From Bacteroidota bacterium (GTDB lineage: Bacteria > Bacteroidota > Bacteroidia > Chitinophagales > UBA10324): a stretch of 37,911 nt of DNA. Location of the stretch: NCBI GenBank assembly GCA_014190575.1, contig BJGQ01000030.1, positions 1 through 37,911 of the forward strand, read 5' to 3'. How positions within the stretch are numbered: position 1 is the stretch's first letter; every line of letters starts with the position of its first letter. Of this stretch, positions 10,345 through 11,008 are shown piece by piece. The notes under the pieces were generated by a model that was not told where the DNA came from, did not search any database, and worked only from the letters and a program-made list of their open reading frames with translations. Made by a program: the position numbers and the translations under genes.

Positions 10345-10503
10345 ATGAAAAGGACATATCAACCATCGAATCGCAAACGCAAAAACAAGCACGGCTTCCG
10401 CAAGCGCATGAAAAGCAATGAAGGCCAGTCAGTAATAAAAGCCCGCCGTCGTCGTGGTCGTAAAAAACTAACTGTTTCGAGCGAAAAGAAACTGAAAGGA
10501 TAA
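10345..10503 (+). CDS. rpmH: 50S ribosomal protein L34
   Basis: A 52-residue, very basic protein that is a clear L34: it starts '[19 protein letters not shown]' and has the conserved '[19 protein letters not shown]' block; only the short tail varies. It is a structural component of the large ribosomal subunit. The gene is easily missed because of its size. It stands just before rnpA, the arrangement conserved across bacteria, and here lies downstream of rho instead of next to dnaA. The stop and the rnpA ATG are 10 bp apart. Confidence 0.97.
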
Positions 10504-10513
10504 AATTATTCCG

Positions 10514-11008
10514 ATGGCAGGCCACCGTAACATCGGCTCTGCACAATCGCAATCGTTCAGCAAAGCAGAGCGACTAAATTCTAAAAAATTAATGGACGAA
10601 CTCTTCAACAAGGGTTCGTCCTTTGTTTTGTATCCATTCAGAGTGTATTGGATGAAGCATGAGCAACCCGTTCCATCAAAGGTGCAGGTGCTCATTTCTG
10701 TTCCAAAGAAAAATTTTCCATTGGCTGTTGACCGAAACAGAATCAAGCGGCTGATGCGCGAAGCATACCGGAAAAATAAATTTCTGATTATTGATTCAAT
10801 GAATGGTAATGAAAAAAATTTAGCTGTTGCATTTTTATTTACGGGTAAAAATTTATCACCACAAAACCTCACCCCTAACCCCTCTCTCAAGCAGAGGGGA
10901 ATGGCCACGCAGAAAAAATCTTCCGTGAAAAATCTTCCTCAATATAAATTAGTGGAAGAAAAAATGATTGAAGCATTGAACCAACTTTCAAAAAACAGTT
11001 TGAAATGA
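10514..11008 (+). CDS. rnpA: Ribonuclease P protein component, with an in-frame insert
   Basis: The protein subunit of RNase P, which matures tRNA 5' ends. The family's '[13 protein letters not shown]' motif (residues 74-86) and the preceding '[17 protein letters not shown]' are intact. At 164 residues it is longer than the usual 110-130. The excess lies between strand '[10 protein letters not shown]' and the C-terminal helix '[18 protein letters not shown]', about residues 113-140, and contains '[12 protein letters not shown]', encoded by a palindromic repeat (see the repeat entry). The insert falls at a surface junction and probably leaves the fold intact. The last bases overlap yidD as ATGA, indicating translational coupling. 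Confidence 0.95.
10867..10903 (+). repeat. Palindromic repeat element inside rnpA ([10 protein letters not shown] type)
   Basis: The core is CCCCTCT (10879-10885), a 7-nt loop and AGAGGGG (10893-10899), preceded by a C/A-rich arm. Read in the rnpA frame it gives [11 protein letters not shown] recall closely similar 'LTPNPSPKERG' peptides from short intergenic repeats of Bacteroidota that sometimes fall inside genes. It is much richer in C/G than the flanking sequence, and the RnpA family normally has no residues here. Only one copy is seen in this window. Confidence 0.6.

Follow-up and report, generated by a model that had tools for sequence, protein, structure and literature searches.

The RNase P protein is needed by most bacteria, and the locus described here raises the question of how its gene, rnpA, came to contain a palindromic, GC-rich segment within its reading frame. 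The window, by which we mean the whole stretch of 37,911 nucleotides analyzed, belongs to an assembly of 3.19 Mb in 91 contigs (G000). We compared this genome with five congeners (G001, G002, G003, G004 and G005) and with more distant genomes; by named records, the genus sits among Chitinophagaceae MAGs. The features of rnpA that bear on the question are the following.

10514..11008, + strand: rnpA, RNase P protein component, 164 aa, with an in-frame insert; the end includes the stop codon
10847..10927, + strand: 81 nt (27 codons) without counterpart in insert-free relatives; placed by MAFFT, ambiguous by some codons
10867..10902, + strand: repeat core CCTCACCCCTAACCCCTCTCTCAAGCAGAGGGGAAT, translated as 11 residues in the RnpA frame
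10879..10885, + strand: left hairpin arm CCCCTCT
10893..10899, + strand: right hairpin arm AGAGGGG
10861..10924, + strand: proposed 64-nt mobile unit, made up of the core, 6 nt before it and 22 nt after it; putative boundaries, carried over from the right-hand offset in three copies elsewhere
10844..10860, + strand: proposed left copy of a 17-bp target duplication, GGTAAAAATTTATCACC; tentative, by eye against relatives
10925..10941, + strand: proposed right copy of the target duplication, GTGAAAAATCTTCCTCA; tentative, by eye against relatives

The rnpA gene is the only such match in G000. Its product matches PF00825 in Pfam (E 6.5e-17), and a YidD gene lies directly downstream of it in the window. 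A preliminary description of this DNA had reported a palindromic repeat inserted in frame into rnpA, and both its coordinates and its account of the element proved right, although the in-frame copies turned out to extend further than it had supposed. The core hairpin has perfect 7-bp arms separated by a 7-nt spacer. Its C/G richness, described earlier as unlike the surroundings, is borne out by a GC content of 0.583 compared with 0.374 in the remainder of rnpA, a level reached by 1.8% of 36-nt windows. Within the window, CCTCACCCCTAACCCCTCTCTCAAGCAGAGGGGAAT occurs once, with 0 occurrences expected from 100 shuffles. Comparison with shuffled sequences gave no support for unusual RNA stability: folding of the 64-nt unit as single-stranded RNA gave a z of -1.33, and 21 of 200 shuffles folded equally well. 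Rfam returned no match in the stretch at the gathering score.

The same description had located the extra residues after the last core strand of RnpA and before its C-terminal helix. An AlphaFold2 model (48 sequences, mean pLDDT 79.5) agrees with this placement, putting the 27 residues between a strand at 102-109 and a helix at 144-163. In the model the RNase P protein fold is kept, with Foldseek matches that include 6ov1, 1a6f and 1nz0, and the insert is a low-confidence loop with a pLDDT of about 50. For rnpA without the insert, the five pairs with G000 or G002 as a member give dN/dS values of 0.17-0.30, and the sixth pair gives 0.16. These values indicate purifying selection on rnpA and argue that the gene is very probably functional.

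Of the relatives examined, only G002 has the segment. We found RnpA matches in 57 genomes, G000 included, of which 30 were aligned and 25 were not; the remaining two, G009 and G047, have long RnpA matches that were read and contain no insert. Among the 30 aligned genomes, the 27 extra residues are present in G000 and G002 only. Insert-free rnpA genes were found in G001, G003, G004, G005 and G010 as well as in the more distant genomes examined, so that four of the five congeners lack what G000 shares with G002 alone. Likewise, among 30 named loci, the insert appears only in L187, which is the G002 contig (JAHEZG010000001.1, isolate nzgw146); L188-L192 duplicate contigs already represented by five loci in the 30-genome RnpA alignment. 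Between G000 and G002, positions 10867-10930 are 94% identical and the flanking parts of rnpA 77-88%.

The segment is not single-copy in its genome. Searching G000 with a 20-mer of the core gave 16 matches with at most 3 mismatches, 4 of them exact, compared with 1 for a reversed-pattern control. A covariance model was built from 15 G000 copies, the rnpA copy included; L011 was left out of its alignment because of the long nested loop there. This model gave 32 matches in G000 at E<0.01, 17 of them beyond the training copies, and delineates a conserved repeat unit of about 60 nt. The scans of the congeners and of 60 genomes used stricter filters and scored a capped number of candidates, and all counts from them are lower bounds: at least 33 matches in G002, 49 in G004, 34 in G005 and 5 in G003, and a match in at least 22 of the 60 genomes. 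The same model found no match in G001 under these filters. An exact 18-mer of the core is present in 11 of 395 genomes of the phylum, G000 included, with 0 control matches in each, and is therefore rare in the phylum. It is repetition, not hairpin energy, that exceeds chance. G004 carries arrays of copies in alternating orientation with a period of about 181 nt, and G005 has an inverted set of four (positions 1-706 of L149, which is on C57 of G004; also L148 and L150).

We then placed these copies relative to genes, naming the copy-bearing open reading frames from NCBIfam and Pfam. Thirty of the 32 G000 matches became loci, were examined in context and were classed by reading. In this count of in-frame against other copies, a comparison proposed in the preliminary description, 9 of 30 lie in frame inside eight genes: rnpA, dnaE (two copies), cysS, tsaE, miaB, sucA, sufD and a glycosyltransferase gene. 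Fourteen of 30 lie in no recognized open reading frame. A tenth in-frame copy, L075, sits near the cut end of an open reading frame at a contig end and is outside the comparison with relatives. Four others fall within the first ~30 codons of an open frame (L051, L061, L071 and L072) and may be leader DNA, and two are immediately upstream of a start codon (L060 and L070).

A single joined query to G001-G005 and G010 served to retrieve relatives of the copy-bearing genes, which were then aligned; some genes were not found in some genomes. For each of the nine in-frame copies, relatives without that copy exist. The cleanest comparison of occupied and empty sites among the other genes is tsaE, with 15 extra residues in G000 and G004 and none in G001, G002, G003 or G005. 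In miaB, 11 extra residues are found in G000 only, of seven genomes. The dnaE gene of G000 encodes 72 residues absent from G003, G004, G005 and G010; both of its copies lie inside this stretch, and one of them has a further palindrome in its loop. At four genes the copy replaces loop sequence, and insertion with deletion must therefore be assumed instead of clean insertion: sufD (copy in G000 and G004, not in G002, G003, G005 or G010), cysS (copy in G000 compared with six relatives without it), sucA (copy in G000 and a related stretch in G005, absent from G002, G003 and G004) and the glycosyltransferase (copy in G000, with G010 having its own copy). The congeners have in-frame copies of their own. 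The C-terminal part of dnaE carries one in G004 and G005 that is lacking in G000 and G003, pyrD of G004 contains one that is spanned by its PF01180 match (from the G004 sequence alone), and four are found in one 584-residue open reading frame of G005, in which Pfam shows only a UvrB-interaction domain and which we take by eye for mfd.

The reading frames used by these copies bear on how a palindrome could persist within genes. The repeat consensus is stop-free in four of six frames, and the nine gene-borne copies use three of the stop-free frames, with the exception of tsaE, where the copy is read in a stop-bearing frame with TAA changed to AAA. Open consensus frames together with selection against other copies are therefore enough to explain the in-frame state.

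Which genomes share a copy differs from gene to gene. G000 and G002 have the rnpA copy in common, whereas the tsaE and sufD copies are common to G000 and G004. This conflict means that loss or transfer must be added, as no single tree without them fits. The only grouping that we rely on in a tree of seven genomes is that of G001 with G003 (support 100); G010 came out next to G002 on a long branch, with many of its data missing, and its placement was not used. Since loss has to be allowed, the extra residues might be viewed as an ancient RnpA loop lost in relatives, or else as an ordinary lineage-specific loop that resembles the repeat by chance. Both are highly improbable. Over the 20-mer, the rnpA DNA matches other copies in the genome exactly, the loop is in no examined RnpA outside G000 and G002, and the peptide of the insert recurs as LTPNPSPKERG or LTPDPSPKERG in pyrD of G004 and cysS of G000.

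We are therefore confident that rnpA carries a copy of a mobile repeat that is short (about 60 nt), palindromic and without a gene of its own. We infer the repeat's mobility, the order of events, the tolerance of the loop and its translation as follows. Its insertion into rnpA would have taken place in an ancestor, or in a donor, common to two species of a single Chitinophagaceae genus. With a net gain of 81 nt, the frame would have stayed open, and the insertion would then be translated as a 27-residue loop. Its position away from the conserved fold, after the final core strand and ahead of the C-terminal helix, may be why the loop is tolerated. In-frame copies could have reached loops of other core proteins in the same way, with gene-breaking copies presumably purged by selection, which would leave many of the survivors intergenic.

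How the repeat moves was approached through the sequences flanking its copies. Among 105 copies, only four exceed the 99% level of mispaired flanks, where about one is expected: those with direct repeats of 28 bp (L163), 30 bp (L260), 15 bp (L164, perfect) and 41 bp (a copy on C5 of G000). A 17-bp direct repeat at L182 is just short of that level. Target duplication did not prove general in this test, as most of the 105 copies are without a detectable one relative to mispaired flanks. The right direct repeat starts 22-24 nt past the core in L163, L164 and L182, 8 nt past it in L260 and 4 nt past it in the C5 copy, and the ends of the unit are not uniform. When the 22-nt offset is applied to rnpA, a 64-nt unit and a 17-bp duplication add up to the 81 nt observed. 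The duplication at the G000 rnpA copy is not significant against mispaired flanks, and for the G002 copy the p value is no better than 0.024, in a different register; the 17-bp duplication in rnpA is thus a tentative reading by eye against relatives.

Short palindromes that occur in inverted pairs and alternating arrays are also what the consulted parts of one report describe for REPs (PMC3733652). The repeat could then be of the REP type and be mobilized by a RAYT (Y1 HUH transposase), with in-frame insertion as a by-product, a proposal that is compatible with a mobile repeat in rnpA and that we consider unlikely. Matches to PF01797 are present in 43 of the 60 genomes, and G001 lacks both the repeat and a PF01797 match. 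Over the 60 genomes, 19 have both, 3 the repeat only, 24 PF01797 only and 14 neither, a weak co-occurrence (one-sided Fisher p 0.049, kinship ignored). The loci themselves speak against such a link: one of 19 scanned PF01797 loci holds the repeat, at a distance of ~3 kb, neither PF01797 gene of G000 has a repeat nearby, and seven of eight PF01797 loci checked in the genus (2 of 2 in G000, 2 of 6 in G002, 1 of 5 in G003, 2 of 3 in G004 and 1 of 2 in G005) have no core match near them. Nor are GTAG or CGTC tags recognizable beside the stem.

A second palindrome family, CTTCGACAAGCTCAG, has 33 matches in G000 and 83 in G002 at up to 1 mismatch (control 0). The glycosyltransferase genes of G002, G004 and G005 contain in-frame pieces of it (L117, L118 and L119), which occupy the same loop in which G000 has the first repeat.

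Both palindromes are found within larger elements. The fetched loci include nine elements that are 109-140 bp long and share 18-bp inverted ends, TAGACTTCTTCGGAAAAT (L217, L218, L220, L226, L228, L232, L234, L235 and L240); five have the CCCCTCTCC core and four carry the CTTCGACAAGCTCAG palindrome, one set of ends with two cargoes. In G002 (20 compared with 8) and G005 (23 compared with 4), the end sequence is more frequent than its control. This would fit a MITE, mobilized by an insertion-sequence transposase, that had the repeat as its core and left the gene-borne copies as remnants without ends. We regard this as quite unlikely, since the gene-borne copies, rnpA included, are without the 18-bp ends, and the end sequence is hardly enriched in the core-rich genomes G000 (10 compared with 6) and G004 (7 compared with 5) and not enriched at all in G001 and G003. 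An insertion sequence with the 18-bp ends was sought and rejected: close pairs of ends occur, with no transposase-sized span by eye among the matches listed for the six genomes, in which assembly breaks could hide one.

In favoring a mobile repeat without a gene of its own, we can also envisage a bolder account. The palindrome may be mobile and protein-compatible, with a mechanism that leaves variable target duplications of 15-41 bp, unlike RAYT-moved REPs or MITEs driven by insertion sequences, and with tolerant loops reused by different palindrome families. This is speculative, and we think it rather improbable. If it were true, variable duplication length would let insertions restore the frame or duplicate a gene start, and rnpA, tsaE, dnaE and cysS would keep gaining copies.

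Among known systems, the parallel to Rickettsia palindromic elements, suggested in the preliminary description, holds in the sense that the two work alike, with in-frame copies in seven other G000 genes. As the consulted parts of two papers present them (PMC10969869, PMC3733652), both are palindromic and multicopy, lie in frame in unrelated genes, some of them core, add extra segments to the encoded products and have more copies outside genes. The likeness drawn here is in how the elements behave, and there are differences: the host here is a member of the Bacteroidota, and the unit is ~60 nt compared with the ~100-150 bp given for the Rickettsia elements, with only the copies inside inverted ends reaching 109-140 bp. 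Similarly, the intragenic REPs of the GTAG and CGTC classes, as far as consulted in Di Nocera et al. 2013 (PMC3733652), are short stem-loops that occur singly and as inverted pairs, with in-frame copies that include dnaE and tRNA synthetase genes. The repeat is set apart from them, by eye from that description, as it has no tag beside the stem, no A-T stem start and no RAYT adjacency. Some copies resemble MITEs in lying within elements with terminal inverted repeats, unlike the gene-borne copies. A further point of comparison is the PARCEL, or palindromic amphipathic repeat coding element. PARCELs of Mollicutes are likewise coding palindromic repeats that are apparently mobile, and they differ in being tandem intragenic repeats in repeat proteins, according to the parts of the source consulted (PMC2996958).

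Intragenic REPs were already listed in several bacterial species in 2013, in the portion of that work consulted (PMC3733652). The consulted passages of a 2024 review treat frequent in-frame palindromic insertion as a peculiarity of Rickettsia and a similar process in other prokaryotes as conceivable (PMC10969869). The Chitinophagaceae repeat is a further intragenic palindrome family and, as far as tested, belongs to neither published tag class. Searches by peptide, DNA word and topic, with coverage that excluded most subscription journals and the original RPE papers, found no account of it; the words and peptides brought up one unrelated virus paper. Six closely related genomes, one of them repeat-free, offer core-gene sites that are occupied in some and empty in others, an unusually good matched set in which the neutrality of insertion, the keeping of frame and the loss or transfer of copies become testable. 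As a small protein that lends itself to in vitro assay, the RNase P protein could allow a direct measurement of what its insert costs.

Several smaller observations accompany these results. At L060 (G000 C5:22611-22672), the repeat precedes an ABC-transporter-like gene, named by eye, and is flanked by two diverged ~41-bp copies containing the start codon, as though insertion had duplicated the start of the gene; L281 in G004 is a similar, weaker case of ~41 bp. A third palindrome, CCTCATCCGCCTTCGGCACCTTCTCC, is nested together with its complement arm in the repeat's hairpin loop at L074 (G000 C15), L148 (G004) and L152 (G005). In G005, yidD was not found directly after rnpA (L020), unlike in G000 and the other congeners. 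Finally, a 146-aa open reading frame runs opposite rnpA on the minus strand (10468-10908), with a GTG start inside the proposed 64-nt unit, and probably arose by chance.
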